From positions 1-51,746 of IMG/VR virus record IMGVR_UViG_3300046532_002939: a stretch of 51,746 bases of DNA, one strand, 5' to 3'. The translations under genes and the position numbers were made by a program. The stretch comes from a virus. Of this stretch, positions 8,594 to 51,746 are shown one piece after another (within the stretch, counting starts at the first letter, position 1; each line of letters begins with the position of its first letter). The notes beneath the pieces were generated by a model, which saw only the letters and a list, made by a program, of their open reading frames with translations, ran no database searches and had not been told where the DNA came from.

Positions 8594-11500
8594 ATGGCTA
8601 TTACACGTATTTTAAATAACCAGATTACGGATAGTACGATCACTGCCGCAAAGATCGCATCTGGTACGTTGACGGGGGGTTTGTTTGCAACTAACCTAAC
8701 GTTAAACAGTAATGTTACCATCTCAGGTAACTTAACCGTAAGTGGTACAAGAAGCACAGTATCAAGCACGAACACCTTTGTTAATGATCCATTAATTGTA
8801 TTCAATAACGGATACACCGGATCGCCAACTTACGATATTGGTATTTTAGCTAACAGAAACCTTGCTAACTTAGATGGAAATGCAGTTAACACTGCTCTAG
8901 TGTGGGTTGAGGCGGATGATAAATTTGAAGCAATTGCAACTACTGAAACTGGCGGTACAGCAGGTGCAATTAATAGAACAGCATATGTTGACTTCCAAGC
9001 AAAAGATATTGATGGTGTAACAGTCACAGGCACAACACTAACTGATGGTACATTAAGTGCCGCTTCAGGAAGTATTACAGGTGCAGTAAATATTACAGCA
9101 AGTGGAACAATTACAGGTGATTTAACTGGTGATGTAACTTCAACTGGAACTTCTACTCTTGCAACAGTTGATATTAATGCTGGTGCTATTGACGGAACAA
9201 CCATTGGTGCAACTGCCGCTTCAACAGGTGCATTTACAACAATCACAGCTTCGAGTACATTAAGTGCAGTTGGCATAACTGACACAGGCACAACAACGCT
9301 TGGCACTGTTGACATTAATGGCGGTGCCATTGATGGAACAACTATTGGTGCTACAACACCTAGTAGTGTAGCATCAACAACATTAGGCGCAACTGGCGCA
9401 GTAACACTTGTTGGTGGAACAACAACTATTGGCATAGCCGACATTAACAGTGGTAACATTGACGCAACAATTATTGGTGCTTCAACAACTGCCGCAGGTA
9501 GCTTTACAACAATTGGTGGTACTGTTATTACAGCAAGTACTAACTTTGCAGGAAATATTACTGGTAACGTAACTGGTAACTTAGACGGTATTATTGGTGG
9601 TAACACACCAGCCGCAGGTAGCTTTACAACAATTGGTGGTACAGTTATTACAGCAAGTACTAACTTTGCAGGAAATATTACAGGCGATGTAACTGGTGAT
9701 GTAACTGGTGATGTAACAGGTAATGTAACAGGTAATGTTAGTGGTAATGTAACTTCAACTGGAACTTCAACTTTCACAACAATTGATGTTAACGGCGGCG
9801 CTATTGACAATGCTATTATTGGTGCAAACGTTCCATTAGCAGGTAGCTTCACAACAGTTGGTGGTACTACTATTACAGCAAGTGCTAACTTTGCAGGTGA
9901 CATTACAGGTGATGTAACTGGCGACGTAACTAGTACTGGTACAAGTACATTTACAACAGTTGACATCAATGGCGGCAATATTGACGCAACAATTATTGGT
10001 GCTACAACTCCAGGCGCAGGTAGCTTTACAACAGTTAATGCTTCTGGTGCAATCACTGCCGACTTAACTGGTGATGTTACAGGTAACGCTGATACAGCAA
10101 CAGCTCTAGCAACAGGTAGAACTATTGCAATCACTGGCGATGCAACATATACATCAGGATCATTTGATGGAACAGGCAATGTAACTGGTGCATTAACATT
10201 AGCGGCTAGTGGAGTAACAGCCGCAACAGTTGGATCTGGAACAGCAATTCCAGTTATTACTGTTGATGCAAAAGGACGTATTACATCAACTTCAACAGCC
10301 GCAGTAACAGCCGGCTTATTGGCTATGGCAGGTGACTCGGGCACTGACAACGTAACAGTTGGTACTGATACACTAACCTTTGCTGGTACAACAAACGAAG
10401 TTGTAACTACAGTAACAGACAACCAAGTACAAATTGGTTTACCGGACAACGTAACAGTTGGTGGAAACTTAACAATTAGTGGTGACTTAACAGTTGATGG
10501 TACAACTACAACAGTTAACACAACTAACCTTGAAGTTGAAGATCCATTGATGTTCTTAGCAACTGGTAACGGTGGCGCTGACTTAGTGGACATTGGTTTC
10601 TACGGACTATATGACACAAGTGGCTCACAAGACTTATACGCAGGACTATTTAGAGATGCTGGAGATGGCAAATTTAAATTCTTTAAAGATACACAAGACG
10701 TTCCAACTACAACAGTGGATACAAGTGGTACAGGCTATGCAGTCGCATCACTAGTAGCAAACGTAGAAGGTACTACCGACGGTGCTCATAATGGTACAGT
10801 TGGTGCAACAACTGCCGCAACTGGCGCATTTACAACAATCAGTGCTAGTGGAACAATCACTGGTGATGTAACTGGTGACTTAACTGGAATTGCAAGTCAA
10901 GCAACAGCATTACGTACAGGTAGAACTATTGCAATTACAGGAGATGGAACTTATACATCGGGGTCATTTGACGGTAGTGCAAACGTAACTGGTGCATTAA
11001 CATTAGCGGCTAGTGGAGTTTCAGCAGGCTCATACGGCGACGCCTCAAACGCAGTTGCATTAACAGTTGATTCCAAAGGACGAGTTACAGCAATCTCAAC
11101 AAATGCAATTGCCGCAACTTACTCAATTACTGGTGATAGTGGATCAAAGACTATTGCATTAGCATCTGAAACAATTGCTTATACAGGTGGTACTGGTGTA
11201 ACAACCGCAGTATCCGACGCTGGAGATTCAATTACATTTGCAATTGGACAAGCAGTTGGACTATTTGACAACGTATCATTTACAACAATTGGTGGTACTG
11301 TTATTACAGCAAGTACTAACTTTGCAGGTGATATAACTGGTGACTTAACTGGTGGTGCAACAATTGGTGCAGGTAAAACATTAGATGTAGATGGTGTTGT
11401 AGATATTGATGCAAGTTCAGGTAACATGGACGGCGTTATTATTGGTGCAACAACAACTGCGGCAGGTTCATTTACATCAATTAATGCAAGTGGTGCAATT

Positions 11501-13066
11501 ACAGGTGACTTAACTGGTACAGCAGATGTTGCTACAGCAGTTACTTTAGTTGCTTCTAACAGCACAGACTCTGCACATTACATTAACTTTACTGATTCTG
11601 CAACAGGCAACGAGAATATTAGAACTGATACAGGACTTACGTTTAATCCAAGTAGTGATACATTAACAACTACAACGTTTAGTGGTGCATTAACTGGTAA
11701 CGCAAGTACAGCTACAGCATTTGCAAGTACTATGACACTTTCCTTAGGCGGAGATTTAAGTGGTTCAGTTGCATTTGATGGATCTGGCAACGCTACATTA
11801 AACGCAACTATTGCCGCAGATAGTATTGCACTCGGAACTGATACCACTGGAACTTATGTTTCAAGTATTACAAACGGTGATTACATTACAGGTGGTAACG
11901 GTGGTAGCGAAGGCGCCGCATTAACACTAGCAGTTGATGCTACTACAGCAAATACAGCAAGTAAAGTTGTTGCACGTGATGGTAGCGGTGACTTTGCCGC
12001 AGGCACAATTACTGCCTCATTAACAGGTGACGTAACTGGCAACTTAGCAGGTAATGTAACGTCAGCAGGAACAAGTTCTTTTGCAACTGCAACGTTTAGC
12101 GGTGATTTAACTGGTAACAATGCAGGCACCGCAGGTGTTGATGTGTTATGGTCAGGCGATACAAAAGCTGGACTATTTAGAGTAGTTGCAAGCTCAACAT
12201 ACGATCAAGTTATTGTTGGTGGAGATTCTACTTCTGGAGACTTAGTAACAGGAGCAACATTAAGAATTGTTGGTACTGATTCAATACAGATTCCAGCAGG
12301 TAGTACTGCACAACGTCCAGGCACTGGTGCAACTGGTATGTTACGTTACAACACTACTTCCGGCGCAACTGAAATCCACAATGGTAGCCAATGGGCTGCC
12401 TTAGCCACAGACTTTACTGTTATTACACATGATGGTTTTAACGGTGACGGTAGTACAGTTGCATTTACTATGTCTGAATCAACTACTACAGCAGGTGTTA
12501 TGGTTAGCATTAACGGTGTTATCCAAATTCCAACTACTTCGTATACTGTAAGTGGTGCTACACTAACATTTGATGAAGCACCAGCAACTGGTGATGTTGT
12601 TGATGCAAGAATCATTACAACTACTGCTACAGTAGATGCAATGAGCTCGGCTAACACTTTCATGAAACTTGATGCGGCAAATACTGCAATTAATGTATAT
12701 ACCGGAACGTCCGCGGCGGCAGTAACAAGTTTCTGGGACGTAGATGGCGCATATGTTGAAAACAAAACTGGTGTTAGTGTAACAAGTACAATAGCAAACA
12801 TTGCAACGTTTGCATTAGCAACTTACAGATCAGCTAAGTTTGTTGTACAAAGTACAAACGGAACTGATTATCAAGTTGATGAAGTACTTGTCATACACGA
12901 CGGAACTACAGCAACAATGACATCATATGGTCAAACAGTTGCCGCTGGAACTACAGCGTTTATGACATTAACAGTAGACATTGATAGCGGAAACGTTAGA
13001 CTAAGAGGAACTAGCGGTAGTGGAACTTCAACTGTAAGAGTTGCAAAGAACTACATCGTAGTATAA
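8594..13066 (+). CDS. Giant repetitive tail fibre protein
   Basis: A 1490-residue fibre. The N-terminal region carries the GNLTVSGTRSTVSSTNTFV / VNDPLIVFNNG / LVWVEADDKF module (about residues 44-118), with a second copy near residues 630-700 (GDLTVDGTTTTVNTTN, VEDPLM). Between and after them are many degenerate repeats of about 40-50 residues built from ITGDVTGDVTSTGTSTFTTV and IDxTIIGATTPxAGSFTTI. These repeats probably fold as a long beta-helical or triple-stranded shaft. Near the end come a MLRYNTTSGATEIHNGSQW module, a GDGSTVAF..VSINGVIQ bead and the shared C-terminal YRSAKFVVQSTNGTDYQV domain. Some repeats are nearly identical in DNA, so repeat number may vary. A strong hairpin terminator follows. 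Confidence 0.8.
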   Translation: MAITRILNNQITDSTITAAKIASGTLTGGLFATNLTLNSNVTISGNLTVSGTRSTVSSTNTFVNDPLIVFNNGYTGSPTYDIGILANRNLANLDGNAVNTALVWVEADDKFEAIATTETGGTAGAINRTAYVDFQAKDIDGVTVTGTTLTDGTLSAASGSITGAVNITASGTITGDLTGDVTSTGTSTLATVDINAGAIDGTTIGATAASTGAFTTITASSTLSAVGITDTGTTTLGTVDINGGAIDGTTIGATTPSSVASTTLGATGAVTLVGGTTTIGIADINSGNIDATIIGASTTAAGSFTTIGGTVITASTNFAGNITGNVTGNLDGIIGGNTPAAGSFTTIGGTVITASTNFAGNITGDVTGDVTGDVTGNVTGNVSGNVTSTGTSTFTTIDVNGGAIDNAIIGANVPLAGSFTTVGGTTITASANFAGDITGDVTGDVTSTGTSTFTTVDINGGNIDATIIGATTPGAGSFTTVNASGAITADLTGDVTGNADTATALATGRTIAITGDATYTSGSFDGTGNVTGALTLAASGVTAATVGSGTAIPVITVDAKGRITSTSTAAVTAGLLAMAGDSGTDNVTVGTDTLTFAGTTNEVVTTVTDNQVQIGLPDNVTVGGNLTISGDLTVDGTTTTVNTTNLEVEDPLMFLATGNGGADLVDIGFYGLYDTSGSQDLYAGLFRDAGDGKFKFFKDTQDVPTTTVDTSGTGYAVASLVANVEGTTDGAHNGTVGATTAATGAFTTISASGTITGDVTGDLTGIASQATALRTGRTIAITGDGTYTSGSFDGSANVTGALTLAASGVSAGSYGDASNAVALTVDSKGRVTAISTNAIAATYSITGDSGSKTIALASETIAYTGGTGVTTAVSDAGDSITFAIGQAVGLFDNVSFTTIGGTVITASTNFAGDITGDLTGGATIGAGKTLDVDGVVDIDASSGNMDGVIIGATTTAAGSFTSINASGAITGDLTGTADVATAVTLVASNSTDSAHYINFTDSATGNENIRTDTGLTFNPSSDTLTTTTFSGALTGNASTATAFASTMTLSLGGDLSGSVAFDGSGNATLNATIAADSIALGTDTTGTYVSSITNGDYITGGNGGSEGAALTLAVDATTANTASKVVARDGSGDFAAGTITASLTGDVTGNLAGNVTSAGTSSFATATFSGDLTGNNAGTAGVDVLWSGDTKAGLFRVVASSTYDQVIVGGDSTSGDLVTGATLRIVGTDSIQIPAGSTAQRPGTGATGMLRYNTTSGATEIHNGSQWAALATDFTVITHDGFNGDGSTVAFTMSESTTTAGVMVSINGVIQIPTTSYTVSGATLTFDEAPATGDVVDARIITTTATVDAMSSANTFMKLDAANTAINVYTGTSAAAVTSFWDVDGAYVENKTGVSVTSTIANIATFALATYRSAKFVVQSTNGTDYQVDEVLVIHDGTTATMTSYGQTVAAGTTAFMTLTVDIDSGNVRLRGTSGSGTSTVRVAKNYIVV
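9491..9681 (+). repeat. 120-bp-spaced direct repeat in the fibre gene
   Basis: Bases 9491-9561 and 9611-9681 are 71-nt direct repeats with a single difference (act/aca at the twenty-third codon region). A third partial copy lies at 11279-11331. They encode the AAGSFTTIGGTVITAS segment of the shaft repeat, a 40-residue period. Recombination between copies would change fibre length in frame. Confidence 0.8.
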
Positions 13067-34491: not shown

Positions 34492-35190
34492 ATGTCAGGC
34501 ATTGATTTATTATACGAAGGTAAAGCAAAACAAATATATTCAACTGAAAGCGACCGCCATGTTATTATGTACTTTAAAGATGACGCTACTGCTGGTAATA
34601 GAGCAAAAGAAGCAAAGTTTGATGGCAAAGGTGCATTAAATTGTAGTATCACAACTAAACTATTTAATAAAATAAATGTACCAACACATTACGTTAAGAC
34701 ATTGTCTGACAGGGAGATATTAGTTAGGAAAGTAGATATTATTCCTATTGAAGTTATTGTTCGTAATAGGGCCGCTGGTACATTTTGTAAACGATATGGA
34801 CTAGAGGTTGGAACAAAACTAGCACAACCTATTATTGAATATTGTGTTAAGGATGATGATTTAAATGATCCACCAATTTGCGAAGAAGCTATTCTTGCTT
34901 TAAAATTGTGTAGTAGAGAGCACTTACACAATATGCATTCTCAGACCGAATACATCAGAACCTTTCTAACTAGTCTTATGGAAGAAATTGGATTTGAATT
35001 AATAGACTTTAAATTAGAGTTTGGCATCACTAACGACGGCCAACTAGTTCTTGCAGATGAAATATGTCCTGACACTATGCGACTATGGAAAGACAATCAG
35101 AGTTATGATAAGGATCTATTTAGATTAGATTCGGGTGATTTGCTTGCAGGTTATAGAGAAGTTAACCAGCGTTTGGATAACATTGTATAA
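34492..35190 (+). CDS. purC: SAICAR synthetase PurC
   Basis: A 232-residue protein of full length for bacterial PurC (about 237). It joins aspartate to CAIR using ATP in purine biosynthesis. Motifs: LLYEGKAKQIY (residues 5-15), YFKDDATAGN (27-36), EVIVRNRAAGTFCKRYG (about 86-102) and DEICPDTMRLW (about 194-204). All are conserved catalytic or nucleotide-binding stretches of this family, so it should be active. Together with PiT it forms a purine/phosphate supply unit. A phage-carried purC is known from marine T4-like phages. Confidence 0.95.
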   Translation: MSGIDLLYEGKAKQIYSTESDRHVIMYFKDDATAGNRAKEAKFDGKGALNCSITTKLFNKINVPTHYVKTLSDREILVRKVDIIPIEVIVRNRAAGTFCKRYGLEVGTKLAQPIIEYCVKDDDLNDPPICEEAILALKLCSREHLHNMHSQTEYIRTFLTSLMEEIGFELIDFKLEFGITNDGQLVLADEICPDTMRLWKDNQSYDKDLFRLDSGDLLAGYREVNQRLDNIV

Positions 35191-43604: not shown

Positions 43605-44322
43605 TTTAGAAACATTAAACTTAATATATCAGTATGATAGTTTTCTTGACAGTTTAACTAATATTGCTGACCTAGGATGCGGTGCTGGAGTAGATCTTAA
43701 TTGGTGGTCCACATTAACAACAAGAGACGAAGTGGCCCGCCCACACAATTATAATGTGTACGGTGTTGATAAAAAACTTAACCTTGAACCTCGTTTTTTA
43801 GAAAACGATCGAGTTTTCCCAATTGAAGCAGACTTTGAACAAGAAGGAGTATTCTCAACTCCGGTAGATTTAATTTGGTGTCATGATGCATTTCAGTTTG
43901 TTAAGAACCCAATGCAAACACTAAAGAACTGGAATAAACTTTTAGTTAAAGATGGTATGTTAGTTATTATCATGCCACAGTTGTCAGGGTACGTAAATAA
44001 CAAGCATAGTCAGCGTGTATACACTGGAGTGGTGCATAGTTACAATACATTAAATATGATGTACATGTTAGCACTAAATGGGTTTGATTGTAAAGATGCT
44101 TATTTTTACAGAGATCCACTTGATGTTATAAATCCGTGGATACATATTGCAGTGTATAAAAGTAGTGATCCGTTAGATCCTGATACTACGTTACTTGAAC
44201 TAGCTTCACAGAACCGGTTAAATCCAAGTGCTGAGACGTGCCTTAAAAAGTATGGGCACCTAAGGCAAGAAGAGATTTACACTACTTGGTTTGATAAAGA
44301 TTGGTATAGATTAAAATCATGA
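43564..44322 (+). CDS. SAM-dependent methyltransferase
   Basis: A 252-residue class I methyltransferase. Motif I is IADLGCGAGVDLNWW (about residues 33-47), the acidic end of strand 2 is YGVDKKLNLE, and the post-motif strand is LIWCHDAFQF with LLVKDGMLVIIMP as motif III. The substrate cannot be read; the next gene overlaps its stop (ATGA) and encodes a sugar-linked fusion, which suggests glycan or nucleotide-sugar methylation. Confidence 0.75.
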   Translation: MDQFTSPYQSHLHSLETLNLIYQYDSFLDSLTNIADLGCGAGVDLNWWSTLTTRDEVARPHNYNVYGVDKKLNLEPRFLENDRVFPIEADFEQEGVFSTPVDLIWCHDAFQFVKNPMQTLKNWNKLLVKDGMLVIIMPQLSGYVNNKHSQRVYTGVVHSYNTLNMMYMLALNGFDCKDAYFYRDPLDVINPWIHIAVYKSSDPLDPDTTLLELASQNRLNPSAETCLKKYGHLRQEEIYTTWFDKDWYRLKS

Positions 44323-45083
44323 GAGTTGCACTAGTTACAGGTGGCTTTGATCCAATTCACAGCGGCCACATTAAATTAATACAAGATGCTAAACAGCACG
44401 GCGACGAAGTTTGGGTTGGTGTTAATAGTGATGAATGGTTAATTAATAAAAAAGGTTTTGTCTTTCAATCCATGTCTGATCGAGTTGCTATTGTAACAGC
44501 ATTAGCTGGAGTAAGTAAAGTTATCTCGTGGGATGATTCATCCGGCGATGCAGGCGGTGCAATTTTTAAGTCAATATCATTAGGGGCTACACATGTTTCA
44601 TTTTGCAACGGTGGAGATAGAAACGAAGCATCTTTACCAGCAACTGAAAAAGTATGGGCCACAAGACTAGATTGTGACTTCGTTTACGGCGTGGGTGGCT
44701 CAGACAAGGTTAATAGTAGCTCCTCAATTGCCGAGAATATTAAGTCTCCTAAAACAGTACGCTCTTGGGGATATTATAGAGTGTTACATGAAGTTGTTGG
44801 TTGTAAAGTTAAAGAACTAACAGTAGATCCTGGACAAAGTTTAAGCATGCAACAACACGAACACCGTAGTGAGTTTTGGTTGGTCTCCTCAGGCGGTGCA
44901 ATTATAAACACACAAACAGAAGACAACCCACCTACAGTTCTTCAAATACATAACAGTACTTTCATACCTGCAGGTATGTGGCATCAGTTAATTAATCCAT
45001 TCCCTGAGCCGTGCAGAATTATTGAGATACAATATGGTGTCAACTGTGTTGAAGAGGATATTAAAAGATTTGAAGAAAAATAA
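44319..45083 (+). CDS. Nucleotidyltransferase-cupin fusion (sugar-phosphate enzyme)
   Basis: 254 residues with two domains. Residues 1-140 are a cytidylyltransferase-like fold with GGFDPIHSGHIKLI, that is the HxGH motif at residues 14-17, as in RfaE/HldE or glycerol-3-phosphate cytidylyltransferases. Residues 147-250 are a cupin of the mannose-6-phosphate isomerase type II kind: SWGYYRVLHE, MQQHEHRSEFWLVSSG with metal ligands near H180 and H182, FIPAGMWHQLINP and IIEIQYG. The combination suggests handling of a hexose or heptose phosphate. A phosphomannomutase-like gene occurs at the window end. A bidirectional terminator follows. Confidence 0.75.
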   Translation: MRVALVTGGFDPIHSGHIKLIQDAKQHGDEVWVGVNSDEWLINKKGFVFQSMSDRVAIVTALAGVSKVISWDDSSGDAGGAIFKSISLGATHVSFCNGGDRNEASLPATEKVWATRLDCDFVYGVGGSDKVNSSSSIAENIKSPKTVRSWGYYRVLHEVVGCKVKELTVDPGQSLSMQQHEHRSEFWLVSSGGAIINTQTEDNPPTVLQIHNSTFIPAGMWHQLINPFPEPCRIIEIQYGVNCVEEDIKRFEEK

Positions 45084-46012: not shown

Positions 46013-46102
46013 GGACAGTTGGCTGAGCGGCTTAAAGCGGGGGATTACTAATCCCTTGTACGAGCAATCGTACCGTGGGTTCGAATCCTACACTGTCCGC
46101 CA
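46013..46102 (+). tRNA. tRNA-Ser with anticodon ACT
   Basis: A class II tRNA: acceptor GGACAGT/ACTGTCC, D-arm, anticodon stem GGGGA/TCCCT with loop TTACTAA, long variable arm (GTACGA/TCGTAC), T-arm GTGGG/CCTAC, discriminator G and encoded CCA. The loop places ACT (46047-46049) at positions 34-36. The long variable arm and G73 fit serine. A34 is unusual in bacterial Ser tRNAs. Confidence 0.85.
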
Positions 46103-46359: not shown

Positions 46360-46436
46360 CTGCCCTTAGCTCAGCTGGATAGAGCAACAGCCTTCTAAGC
46401 TGTAGGTCGTAGGTTCGAATCCTACAGGGCAGGCCA
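46360..46436 (+). tRNA. tRNA-Arg (TCT)
   Basis: Acceptor CTGCCCT/AGGGCAG, D-arm GCTC..GAGC, anticodon stem ACAGC/GCTGT with loop CTTCTAA (anticodon TCT), T-arm GTAGG/CCTAC, CCA encoded. It reads AGA/AGG, codons common in AT-rich phage genes. Confidence 0.95.
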
Positions 46437-46440
46437 AATT

Positions 46441-46527
46441 GCGAGCGTGGCGGAATAGGTAGACGCAACAGACTTAAAATCTGTTATCTGTATAGGTGTG
46501 TGGGTTCGAGTCCCTCCGCTCGCACCA
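46441..46527 (+). tRNA. tRNA-Leu (TAA)
   Basis: Acceptor GCGAGCG/CGCTCGC, anticodon stem ACAGA/TCTGT with loop CTTAAAA (anticodon TAA), long variable arm, T-arm with TTCGAGT, A discriminator and encoded CCA. It reads UUA, the favoured leucine codon here. Confidence 0.95.
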
Positions 46528-48774: not shown

Positions 48775-48963
48775 CATTAAAAAAGATAGAGTATTCTTAT
48801 GTTTTGAGTAAATAACACTGAGGCAAATTGTATATACAAATAACCAAAAATAAAAAACTAATACCGACAACAAACCGCTATAGTGAATCTCTTGAAGATT
48901 TTGGCGGCTTTTTCTTTTGCTCTCTGTTGGATTAGATTATATAATATAAGGAAGATTAATCAT

Positions 48964-49875
48964 ATGAGAAATAATACATTATTCGGAGCAATGGTTGCTA
49001 CCGCATTAGTTTTATCAACTGGCAGTGCATACGCAGACACAGACTCAGTACTAAGTTCTGTGAAGGTAAAAGTCTTTGGTGAAGCTCGTGCGTTTATCGA
49101 AGCGAGTGATGCTACAAATGTTGATGCAGAAATTAAGTCAACTGATTCAAAGCTAGGAGTTAAATTTAACTCCGAAGGCCCAATTGGTGTCTTTGGTGAA
49201 CTAAGTGCTGACGTAGCTGTTAATGGTAATGGAACAGACGACTTAACTACACGATTTGGTTATGTTGGTGTCAACACTCCATTCGGTGACGTTAGCCTTG
49301 GCAAGCAAATGAGCATCATGGAAATCTATGTTGATAAAGCAGATATCTTTATGAACGGTGGAAACCAATCTGTTCAGAAGCAAGATTTTTTCCAAAAGAA
49401 TAGTTTAAAGTACATGGGTACGTTTGACAAAGTTAGTGTTGGTGGATTAGCAGTTATGACTGATGATTCCTCTAATAAAGACATTGATAGCTGGCAACTT
49501 GGTGCTGGATACGAAGGCGAAGGATATGTTCCATCTATTGGTGTAGCATATGCACGTGATGCCATTAATGACATTAATCATTATGGTATTGGTTTATCTA
49601 AGACATTAAATAAACTCTCACTTGCTGGAAGTTTTAGTGTTAAAGATCAACTAGTTGATGTAACTGGTTACGAATTAGTAGCTGGCTATGCTGTTTCAGA
49701 TGCACTTACTGTTAAAGGTGGATACGGCGATACCGATACAGCAGGAGACGATGGTCTTGTAACTGCAGGAGCTGAGTATATGTTACTTAAAGATGCATTA
49801 GCTTTTACTACAGTTGATTATGATGTAGACGCATCAAACTACACACTTAGAACAGGACTTAGTATTTCTTTCTAA
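48964..49875 (+). CDS. Outer-membrane porin
   Basis: 303 residues from the ATG at 48964 (GGAAG upstream); the longer frame from 48883 adds an unlikely N-terminus. Signal peptide: RNNTLFGAMVATALVLSTGS then AYA before DTDSV. The mature part is a general-porin barrel: GEARAFIEAS, DSKLGVKFNSEGPIGVFGEL, TTRFGYVGVNTPFGDVSLGK, alternating strands throughout, and a C-terminal Phe (TLRTGLSISF) as used by the BAM complex. It resembles Gram-negative porins such as OmpU/OmpC-type. A phage copy would be exported to the host outer membrane; see findings. A terminator follows at 49903. Confidence 0.85.
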   Translation: MRNNTLFGAMVATALVLSTGSAYADTDSVLSSVKVKVFGEARAFIEASDATNVDAEIKSTDSKLGVKFNSEGPIGVFGELSADVAVNGNGTDDLTTRFGYVGVNTPFGDVSLGKQMSIMEIYVDKADIFMNGGNQSVQKQDFFQKNSLKYMGTFDKVSVGGLAVMTDDSSNKDIDSWQLGAGYEGEGYVPSIGVAYARDAINDINHYGIGLSKTLNKLSLAGSFSVKDQLVDVTGYELVAGYAVSDALTVKGGYGDTDTAGDDGLVTAGAEYMLLKDALAFTTVDYDVDASNYTLRTGLSISF

Positions 49876-49987: not shown

Positions 49988-50392
49988 ATGTACGTAACAG
50001 AAGCAATGATCCAAAGCATGGAAGAAATGAATAGAAATGCTGGGGATATGGAAAAATCCATTAAAGCAATGATGGAGACAGAAGGAAGAATGCACGGAGT
50101 TGAATTAGATCGACGTCATTCAGCAAGAGATATGTGGGCAAAACTAATGGTCCATATGCAAACTGCGGCACCTACAAGTTCGATGATGACCGAAGTTGCA
50201 ATGCCAATGGTAGACCCAAACATGCACATGCATGAGGATGGATCCGAGCATTCACATGACGATGGTAACATGGCTCATGTCCATGACGATTCAGCTGAAG
50301 CAGGAACAACTGCACCTGACGTAGTTTATGGTGAAGATTCCGAAGGTAACAGAATCCTTACTGAAGATCCGAATACACCAACACAAAGCTAA
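49988..50392 (+). CDS. Methionine- and histidine-rich protein
   Basis: 134 residues from the ATG at 49988, preceded by AAGGAGG (49975-49981). The first 50 residues form a Met-rich helix (MIQSMEEMNRNAGDMEKSIK, MMETEGRMHGVELDRRHSAR). Residues about 72-100 hold MPMVDPNMHMHEDGSEHSHD and then DGNMAHVHDDSAEA: many Met, His and Asp in a disordered stretch, as in metal-binding proteins. The C-terminus is acidic. No signal peptide. Two similar terminators flank the gene. Function unknown; metal buffering or binding is inferred. Confidence 0.6.
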   Translation: MYVTEAMIQSMEEMNRNAGDMEKSIKAMMETEGRMHGVELDRRHSARDMWAKLMVHMQTAAPTSSMMTEVAMPMVDPNMHMHEDGSEHSHDDGNMAHVHDDSAEAGTTAPDVVYGEDSEGNRILTEDPNTPTQS

Positions 50393-50399
50393 AATGTTA

Positions 50400-50440
50400 A
50401 ATAGGCTCTAAGACTTTATATGCTTTGAGCCTATTTTTCT
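50400..50440 (+). terminator. Rho-independent terminator
   Basis: AATAGGCTC and GAGCCTATT form the stem around an 18-nt loop; TTTTCT follows. It shares AAATAGGCTCT with the terminator at 49903. Confidence 0.8.
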
Positions 50441-50488
50441 GAATTAATAAGTATTATGCGAACCAACTAAGGAAAAGCGAATATACAT

Positions 50489-50698
50489 ATGTCTCCAGCT
50501 GAGCTTAAAGAAGCAAATCGGTTATTTTGGATAGTCAAAAGCCGGTTAATTCCCGACACATGGGATTGTCAAACAATTAAAGATATGCATGCTGATTTTT
50601 TTAAGAGATTGTGGTACAACGAAGAAGCATATATCCACGAAGAGGGGTTTGAAGAATCTTACCAAAAAAAAGTTGACCTAATCAAATTAAAAGGTTGA
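50489..50698 (+). CDS. Small unknown protein before the tmRNA
   Basis: 69 residues with AAGGAAAAG about 15 nt upstream. Helical: SPAELKEANRLFWIVKSRLI then MHADFFKRLWYNEEAYIHEE, several Trp and a basic end. Not recognised. Its last codons overlap the tmRNA promoter -35 element. Confidence 0.5.
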   Translation: MSPAELKEANRLFWIVKSRLIPDTWDCQTIKDMHADFFKRLWYNEEAYIHEEGFEESYQKKVDLIKLKG

Positions 50699-50725
50699 CA
50701 ATCTGTATATAATGTAGTATAAATA
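50695..50725 (+). promoter_or_regulatory. Dual sigma70 and late promoter for the tmRNA
   Basis: TTGACA (50695-50700), a 17-bp spacer and TATAAA (50718-50723); the -10 is part of a perfect late box TATAAATA (50718-50725). Early and late RNA polymerase could both initiate near 50731. Confidence 0.75.
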
Positions 50726-50730
50726 TAATA

Positions 50731-51015
50731 CAATGTTGAAGCATAACAAACATTGCACAGGACCTGGGGGCAGTACCCAGCGCCTCCACCATAAGCACAT
50801 TAAGCAGAATGTACAATTTGGTTTAAGCAGAATGTGCTTATGATGGGGGCGATATAGGATCGACTGGCAAGTAGTAGGAATGTGGAGTTGTCCGGATGTA
50901 AGCTCGGTTAACGCGAACAAAACGACAATTGCAAACGATAATTTTGCATCTGAGGATTTTGCCCTAGCGGCTTAGTTACTCTGGGCGGGTACTGCCTGGA
51001 AACAGAAGTGCCACT
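50731..51015 (+). ncRNA. ssrA: Circularly permuted two-piece tmRNA (precursor)
   Basis: tmRNA rescues stalled ribosomes by trans-translation. Here the acceptor half precedes the coding half, as in alphaproteobacteria. Acceptor half (to 50791): a 7-bp hairpin CAATGTT/AACATTG (50731-50755), T-stem CTGGG/CCCAG with 7-nt loop (50764-50780), then CGCCTCC, A and encoded CCA. Coding half (from 50845): GGGGGCG pairs with CGCCTCC with a G3-U70 wobble, the alanine identity of tmRNA, and GGATCGACTGGC resembles the tmRNA D-region. The tag frame 50931-50975 (gca...gct, tag) gives ANDNFASEDFALAA. Exact 5' and 3' ends are not fixed. Confidence 0.92.
50791..50841 (+). repeat. Processing hairpin between tmRNA halves
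   Basis: ATAAGCACATT (50791-50801) pairs perfectly with AATGTGCTTAT (50831-50841), stacked just beyond the acceptor stem. Inside the loop, TAAGCAGAATGT occurs twice (50801-50812 and 50824-50835). This segment would be cut out when the two mature pieces form. Confidence 0.8.
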
Positions 51016-51066
51016 TACACACACGGTGTGCTATTATCGCATACCAAACACAACAGGAGAACTAAA

Positions 51067-51306
51067 ATGACTGCTAATAAAAACCCGTTCGAGATTAGAC
51101 TCGAAATTCTTAAGATGGCTAAAGAAATGATGGATCGTCAATACGACGAACAAGTTAACCTAGCTCATGACATGATGTCTGACTTTAAAGAGCAAGGTAA
51201 AACTGCTACAGAGTTTCTTAACGAGTACACACCAAAAATGTACCAGCCAACTGAAATTATGGAAAAGGCCGCCGAGCTTTATAGTTTCGTTACTAAAAAA
51301 GATTAA
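51067..51306 (+). CDS. Small helical protein after tmRNA
   Basis: 79 residues from the ATG at 51067 (AGGAGA upstream); a start at 51028 lies before the tmRNA tail and is unlikely. Sequence: NPFEIRLEILKMAKEMMDRQ then FKEQGKTATEFLNEYTPKMY. One or two amphipathic helices. Similar short proteins are common in T4-like marine phages but without known role. A strong terminator follows. Confidence 0.6.
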   Translation: MTANKNPFEIRLEILKMAKEMMDRQYDEQVNLAHDMMSDFKEQGKTATEFLNEYTPKMYQPTEIMEKAAELYSFVTKKD

Positions 51307-51315
51307 TTAAAATTA

Positions 51316-51361
51316 AGTAAGGGTGGGCGTCTAGTATTAAGAATATCCCACCCTTACCTTT
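51316..51361 (+). terminator. Strong rho-independent terminator
   Basis: GTAAGGGTGGG pairs with CCCACCCTTAC around a long loop, then CTTTAAT. Confidence 0.8.
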
Positions 51362-51379
51362 AATGTTAAGGAAATTACA

Positions 51380-51746
51380 TTGGCAATAGCATTTTTATTT
51401 GATGTAGACGGCACACTTACTCCAAGCCGGCAGATGATGGACCCTAAATTCAAAGAATGGTTTATTGATTTTGCAAGTAAGAATTACGTAGGATTAGTTA
51501 CTGGTAGTGATTATCCTAAAACAGAAGAACAAGTAGGCAAAGATGTTTGCCATGCAGTAGGTAGAGTATATAATTGTTTAGGTAGTGACATTTGGTCCCA
51601 AGGTAAAAACATTTATACTAATCCATGGGCACTACCTGATAATCTACATTACTTTTTATTAGAGAAATTGTTTGAAAGTTCGTACCTTGTGCGAGCCGGC
51701 AATCATATTGAACATAGACCGGGTATGGTTAATTTTTGTGTAGTTG
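51380..51746 (+). CDS. Phosphomannomutase-like HAD protein (3' truncated)
   Basis: The frame from TTG at 51380 (AAGGAA at 51368-51373) runs open off the window edge, about 122 residues. It begins with FLFDVDGTLTPSRQMMDPKF, HAD motif I with both Asp. Motif II is VTGSDYPKTEEQVG. Near the edge, HIEHRPGMVNF matches the substrate-binding stretch of eukaryotic-type phosphomannomutases (IEFRNGMLN in human PMM2). PMM converts mannose-6-phosphate and mannose-1-phosphate. The relationship to the nucleotidyltransferase-cupin gene suggests a sugar pathway. Other HAD type IIB phosphatases remain possible. Confidence 0.7.
   Translation, partial: MAIAFLFDVDGTLTPSRQMMDPKFKEWFIDFASKNYVGLVTGSDYPKTEEQVGKDVCHAVGRVYNCLGSDIWSQGKNIYTNPWALPDNLHYFLLEKLFESSYLVRAGNHIEHRPGMVNFCVV

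Follow-up and report, generated by a model that had tools for sequence, protein, structure and literature searches.

A circularly permuted two-piece tmRNA gene with a putative hybrid promoter in a T4-like phage genome fragment, and protein genes in the tmRNA spacers of related phages

A two-piece tmRNA gene in a T4-like phage

We identified a complete circularly permuted two-piece tmRNA gene of the alphaproteobacterial type in the IMG/VR virus record IMGVR_UViG_3300046532_002939, which is 51,746 bases long and is referred to as a whole as the window. The gene is preceded by the motif TTGACA-N17-TATAAATA, a putative hybrid of a sigma-70 and a T4-type late promoter. We consider it likely that this is a phage ssrA gene, transcribed from the hybrid promoter through infection, whose two-piece product rescues ribosomes with the SmpB of the host. 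In related phages, the spacer between the two tmRNA pieces holds small protein genes, a nesting that is well supported and of which we are highly confident. Two-piece phage tmRNAs are already known as a kind and are not rare; the features that we found unreported are the hybrid promoter in place of a 5' hairpin and the spacer protein genes.

The known occurrence of such genes is substantial. Among isolate phages, tmRNA was reported in 402 of 18,146 genomes, and 53 of 133 unique phage tmRNA structures are two-piece, 50 of the 53 coming from marine or aquatic samples (PMC9004378). The tmRNA database holds 79 phage sequences (PMC11915505). In our scans, at least 120 IMG/VR viral stretches match one acceptor pattern; the search patterns favor alpha-type acceptor arms, coding pieces were located by regular expressions, and the contigs are partly redundant, so distinct counts are used where given. 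The view in the original prediction that phage tmRNA genes are rare is thus out of date for aquatic phages.

Judged by its genes, the window derives from a T4-like phage. It encodes a Gp23 major capsid protein (E 1.5e-95), large terminase, tail sheath, and tail tube, as well as a UvsX-like recombinase and a single-strand DNA-binding protein. The closest terminases from isolates are about 52% identical (Pseudomonas phages of the Paride/PA5oct group and Sinorhizobium phage Phosso). Three records have terminases 83-84% identical to that of the window (L211, L212, and L213), and each has a tmRNA. Among 50 records of terminase relatives, 5 gave a tmRNA match, 4 of them above the cut-off; as these records are mostly fragments, the tally does not establish tmRNA as present or absent throughout the relatives. 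No SmpB gene was found in 10 records (the window and nine related records, most of them fragments).

Detection and anatomy of the tmRNA gene

The gene occupies positions 50729-51017 on the plus strand (Table 1). It is matched by Rfam model RF01849 (alpha_tmRNA; 50675-51017, plus strand, 114.5 bits, E 1.4e-30, gathering cut-off 50 bits) and by RF04321 (tmRNA_permuted; 50729-50975, 114 bits, E 1.4e-21, cut-off 47 bits), and ARAGORN calls a permuted tmRNA* with the tag ANDNFASEDFALAA. Together with the phage context (Gp23, terminase, and tail sheath), these matches bear out the original prediction of a phage-encoded permuted two-piece tmRNA at 50731-51015, coordinates that are right to within a few bases but leave out the promoter. 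The parts it listed (acceptor half, T-arm, CCA, hairpin, GGGGGCG, D-like region, and tag frame) are all there; it did not include the promoter, the loss of the 5' hairpin, or the protein genes that relatives carry in the spacer.

Table 1. Features of the tmRNA locus and its flanking genes (window coordinates)
Feature	Position	Strand	Basis	Remark
69-aa phage gene	50489-50698	+	sequence	directly upstream; TGA stop inside -35 box
Putative hybrid promoter TTGACA-N17-TATAAATA	50695-50725	+	sequence	sole hybrid in window
Acceptor piece	50729-50791	+	RF04321 and RF01849 alignments	includes 5' strands of inter-piece helices
T-arm	50764-50780	+	sequence	
Acceptor 3' strand	50781-50787	+	sequence	CGCCUCC
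Discriminator	50788	+	sequence	A
Encoded CCA	50789-50791	+	sequence	
Intervening spacer	50792-50844	+	sequence	53 nt, expected to be removed
5' acceptor strand	50845-50851	+	sequence	GGGGGCG
Coding piece	50845-51017	+	RF01849 match	acceptor-stem G1 to about mature 3' end
Tag frame	50931-50975	+	ARAGORN, sequence	ANDNFASEDFALAA + TAG
79-aa NPFEIR family gene	51067-51306	+	family comparison	starts 275 nt past acceptor end

The acceptor half precedes the coding half, and the two form a 7-bp acceptor stem; the T-arm and encoded CCA are followed, in the coding piece, by a resume codon and a tag frame with a hydrophobic end and a stop. The predicted G3-U70 wobble is present in the sequence and in the alignments. 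Every permuted tmRNA compared, 108 viral and 110 bacterial, has it as well, with U70 set by the search pattern, so the wobble is diagnostic rather than unusual. The fold of the whole gene is more stable than shuffled sequences (z -4.3).

The spacer of the window contains no ORF and forms one long hairpin that prolongs the acceptor stem by 10 bp (UAAGCACAUU/AAUGUGCUUA). The free energy of this acceptor/spacer hairpin is -43.1 kcal/mol versus a shuffled mean of -24.6 (z -5.75), and the hairpin is compatible with the predicted cutting of the precursor into two pieces by tRNA-processing enzymes. The spacer also carries a perfect 13-nt direct repeat (TTAAGCAGAATGT, at 50800-50812 and 50823-50835), perhaps a deletion or duplication scar. 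ARAGORN overlooks permuted tmRNAs that Rfam detects in three other records (L211, L212, and L097), so tallies of phage tmRNAs that rely on ARAGORN alone are likely underestimates.

A putative hybrid promoter in place of the leader hairpin

The window gene shares with alphaproteobacterial ssrA (RF01849; Caulobacter type) the permuted order, the acceptor arm, G3-U70, and a tag of the form ANDN...AA. Unlike the window, the bacterial genes have a 5' hairpin and the element CUAUGG.gAUAAACG before the inter-piece helices, short spacers, and no TATAAATA. From comparison of viral and bacterial upstream sequences, hairpin and element are absent in the window and the promoter stands there instead; phage tmRNA genes begin just downstream of the place that the leader occupies in bacteria. 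As the leader lies outside the general RF04321 model, its loss marks a variant and does not bar membership among permuted tmRNAs.

Within the promoter, the -35 box TTGACA lies at 50695-50700 and TATAAATA at 50718-50725, the latter serving both as a sigma-70 -10 box and as a putative T4-type late promoter, a reading based on motif and conserved position. The sigma-70 arrangement TTGACA-17-TATAAA (50695-50723) was missed by an automatic promoter scan because the scan requires T as the last -10 base. T4 late promoters have an 8-bp TATA box at -10, as here, and lack a conserved -35, whereas phage tmRNA promoters keep a -35 box at 17 nt (PMC2988020 for T4). Transcription is predicted to start about 5-7 nt after TATAAATA, near 50730, which is where the RF04321 match begins as well (50729).

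The motif is widely conserved at this place. Among 111 distinct viral tmRNAs, 80 have TATAAATA at a distance of 27-43 nt upstream of the acceptor arm (34-42 nt in 76 of the 80), and in 53 of the 111 TTGAC. lies exactly 17 nt upstream of TATAAATA. Scanned with the same pattern, bacterial tmRNAs have no TATAAATA in this position, neither in a first set (0/113) nor in an independent class-wide sample (0/60; 0/173 overall). Base composition as the cause is ruled out by three observations: none of the 31 bacterial loci below 45% GC within the sample of 60 has the motif, shuffled viral upstream sequences give a mean of 1.5 occurrences (0.015 with TTGAC.-N17 added), and the local density of TATAAATA in the same viral loci predicts 0.2 within that position range. 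The window itself contains two exact copies, versus 7.4 by chance, so the motif is not simply frequent.

Could the element be a plain sigma-70 promoter, with TATAAATA merely a good -10 box and no late transcription? The exact 17-nt spacing of TTGAC. in the 53 viral tmRNAs is what this reading expects, and the authors of the Melnitz genome call its tmRNA promoter early (PMC9004378). However, the TA that follows TATAAA is superfluous for sigma-70, yet all eight bases are kept in the 80 loci, and about 27 of these copies lack a properly spaced TTGAC. Elsewhere in the window, the motif NATAAATA also marks gene starts: 9 of its 15 sites lie closely upstream of a gene start on the matching strand, so it looks like a working late promoter, and the sites likely constitute a late-promoter set (examples are 1880, 15292, 16109, 26849, 27617, and 49938 on the plus strand and 19934 on the minus strand). 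We therefore regard a plain sigma-70 promoter as rather unlikely, and favor a promoter that would be used both early and late in infection.

A second alternative is that the gene is a captured remnant of host ssrA, left by imprecise excision or recombination and not maintained by selection. Prophages often integrate at ssrA. An exchange of genes along these lines was raised for Melnitz (PMC9004378), but the intact tag frame and stem, the phage-specific promoter and hairpin loss in many loci, and conservation of the tmRNA in the relatives with 83-84% identical terminases already contradict this explanation, which we consider very improbable. A hybrid promoter kept at a fixed position, where bacteria carry the leader hairpin, speaks for a need for the tmRNA early and late in these phages and against a passenger gene.

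Proposed function in ribosome rescue

From gene anatomy and promoter conservation we infer how the tmRNA would be transcribed, processed, charged, and used. T4-type late transcription depends on machinery comprising gp55, gp33, and the clamp. Host sigma-70 would read the promoter early and this phage machinery late, so that synthesis of the tmRNA would continue from the beginning to the end of infection. With RNA polymerase starting about 5-7 nt past TATAAATA, nearly where the acceptor piece begins, the phage would have no need of the bacterial leader hairpin. Host RNase P and 3' nucleases would then excise the spacer hairpin, and the base-paired pieces would be charged with alanine through G3-U70 and bind host SmpB. 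The product is predicted to rescue ribosomes on broken mRNAs, adding ANDNFASEDFALAA as a degradation tag. In sister phages, the spacer is put to a second use and houses a small protein gene.

The tag retains the ANDN start and the LAA end, both of which had been predicted. Three other records have the identical tag (L106, L162, and L211; that of L211 was read from the DNA). Contigs from 84,980 species of bacteria and archaea contain no match to the pattern ANDNFASEDFA, and a bacterial source of the tag was rejected on this exact core. Among the sampled tags, none of 56 distinct viral ones recurs among 92 distinct bacterial ones. These results lend some support to the suggestion that the middle of the tag may differ from that of the host. 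In L106 (161-1099) and L162 (7185-7850, in a 116-kb viral contig), a near-identical tmRNA with the same tag adjoins a gene for a probable TRAP-transporter solute-binding protein, as read from the translation.

Such differences could indicate that the phage tmRNA competes with or replaces that of the host, redirecting tagging rather than freeing ribosomes, for example toward faster or different proteolysis of host proteins. This option was proposed for Melnitz (PMC9004378). It is consistent with the lack of shared tags, with the absence of the tag core from the bacterial genomes searched, and with the higher frequency of [DE][FY]ALAA tag ends in viruses (17/56 versus 5/92 in bacteria). However, tags vary widely among bacteria too, and with the ANDN start and LAA end kept, ordinary ClpXP-type degradation by host proteases is expected. 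We consider redirected tagging unlikely and ribosome rescue the probable role.

Through the conserved promoter, the purpose of a phage tmRNA becomes testable in the cultured phage Melnitz (Methylophilales phage EXVC044M, MZ577097; PMC9004378). Like the window, Melnitz has an alpha-type two-piece tmRNA (RF04321, 113.4 bits) behind TTGACA-N17-TATAAATA. The Melnitz spacer, in contrast, is 142 nt long and contains an unannotated ORF, whereas the shorter spacer of the window is empty. In Melnitz, gp33 lies downstream and a glutamine riboswitch follows the tmRNA rather than lying within it; in the window, the NPFEIR gene is downstream, and the riboswitch is absent from 50200-51746 at E 5. A second cultured phage, Mosig (Pelagibacter phage EXVC030M, MT647606), is also T4-like and has a two-piece tmRNA followed by a small gene. 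It is a marine phage with the tag GEDNFALAA and gp33 directly downstream of the tmRNA, and the hybrid-promoter pattern was not found upstream.

Protein genes in the tmRNA spacers of relatives

Viral spacers are long, with a median of 92.5 nt versus 34 and 27.5 nt in two bacterial samples. Among the 56 viral spacers that reach 90 nt in length, 25 contain an ORF of at least 25 aa led by a Shine-Dalgarno sequence, whereas shuffling gives a mean of 4.6 such spacers (maximum 10). This excess, together with low dN/dS values, rules out chance as the origin of the spacer ORFs. We identified four families. Family A (MFKWL...KADAKIPKYLSG) is present, without annotation, in Melnitz, where the spacer ORF begins MFKWLSKTRLVV. 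Families B and C were found too, the latter beginning MDEVILWEFRKRCVEYICINNYS, and family D is a short hydrophobic protein (...YILWSICADLLLIAG...). Single spacer ORFs outside families A-D, including that of L211, may be chance products.

Scans of viral contigs revealed stretches encoding relatives of A (18), C (73), and D (251). Of these, 171 homologues were examined for nesting (all of A and C, and the best 80 of 251 for D), and 139 proved to lie within a permuted tmRNA: 18/18 for A, 49/73 for C, and 72/80 for D. Several D copies scored as un-nested are cut at contig ends or adjoin a coding piece whose acceptor half the pattern missed. Phage genomes also carry family C as a free-standing gene at other places, which demonstrates that C is a genuine gene rather than a by-product of tmRNA sequence. 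The median dN/dS is 0.17 for A, 0.11 for C, and 0.10 for D (10, 30, and 41 distinct sequences), and third positions account for 56-59% of the differences in the three families, values that indicate purifying selection on the spacer genes. A search of 50,697 isolate phage records gave no match to family C or D, and neither family has a convincing PHROG.

In D, the stop codon is a UGA in 72 of 72 and falls just short of the start of the coding piece (UGAU/GGGGGCG). In C, all 46 of 46 stops lie inside the mature coding piece, mostly as ...MGAK-stop (AUGGGGGCGAAAUAG encodes M-G-A-K-stop), and the same is true of 13 of 18 in A. For protein genes to occupy the spacer of a structural RNA, and to stop shortly ahead of its mature part or within it, is an unusual arrangement that current annotation overlooks, as the Melnitz example illustrates. 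The open-access PMC literature searched yielded no description of a tmRNA spacer with protein genes. The closest parallel is a tRNA gene within the spacer of a permuted tmRNA, likewise a second gene in the intervening sequence (PMC11915505). That case concerns a tRNA and a single MAG, nominally archaeal, whereas the phage cases are protein genes and recur in many phages.

Where the stop lies in the mature tmRNA, as in C and most of A, translation and RNase P cleavage would be mutually exclusive. Speculatively, a cut spacer could act as a nonstop mRNA, to be rescued and tagged by its own tmRNA in an arfA-like feedback. That many aquatic T4-like phages have such a bifunctional tmRNA gene, with a nested protein read off the shared precursor and an arfA-like feedback loop, is a doubtful extension of the nesting itself.

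Within the group of the window, spacer content varies while the tmRNA persists: the window spacer is empty, the spacer of the sister L211, whose tag is identical, measures 146 nt and contains a candidate 47-aa ORF, and the gene directly upstream of the window promoter resembles (compared by eye) an ORF in the tmRNA spacer of L096.

Neighboring and other genes

Homologues of the upstream 69-aa gene also precede the tmRNA in L211 and L212, and occur in L335 and L336 with no tmRNA nearby. The downstream 79-aa gene was considered as a candidate gp33 and rejected: it is not similar to gp33 of Melnitz, and neither PHROG nor Pfam offers a convincing match. It belongs to a separate family (NPFEIR). 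NPFEIR genes start about 270-300 nt past the tmRNA acceptor end in the window and in L093, L110, L132, L167, L181, L186, and L194. A relative occurs in Roseobacter phage CRP-9; no tmRNA was found in the CRP-9 stretch fetched.

Several other genes of the window merit mention. A porin of the Gram-negative type (48883-49875, plus strand; Pfam Porin_4, E 1.2e-24) has weak similarity to OmpU structures and to the porin of Pelagibacter phage HTVC008M, and could serve to change the host surface or exclude other phages. SAICAR synthetase (purC; 34492-35190, plus strand; Pfam E 3.4e-73) is an auxiliary gene of purine synthesis. At 44319-45083 (plus strand), a cytidylyltransferase-like domain is fused to a cupin domain of the mannose-6-phosphate isomerase type. 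A 1490-aa ORF (8594-13066, plus strand), the N-terminal part of which matches tail-fiber and decoration families, shares part of its length with a 587-aa ORF encoded in the other direction (8830-10593, minus strand). ARAGORN also identified a plus-strand tRNA cluster of Ser (anticodon ACT; 46013-46102), Arg(TCT) (46360-46436), and Leu(TAA) (46441-46527); the ACT anticodon is odd, as relatives have Ser(GCT) at that place.
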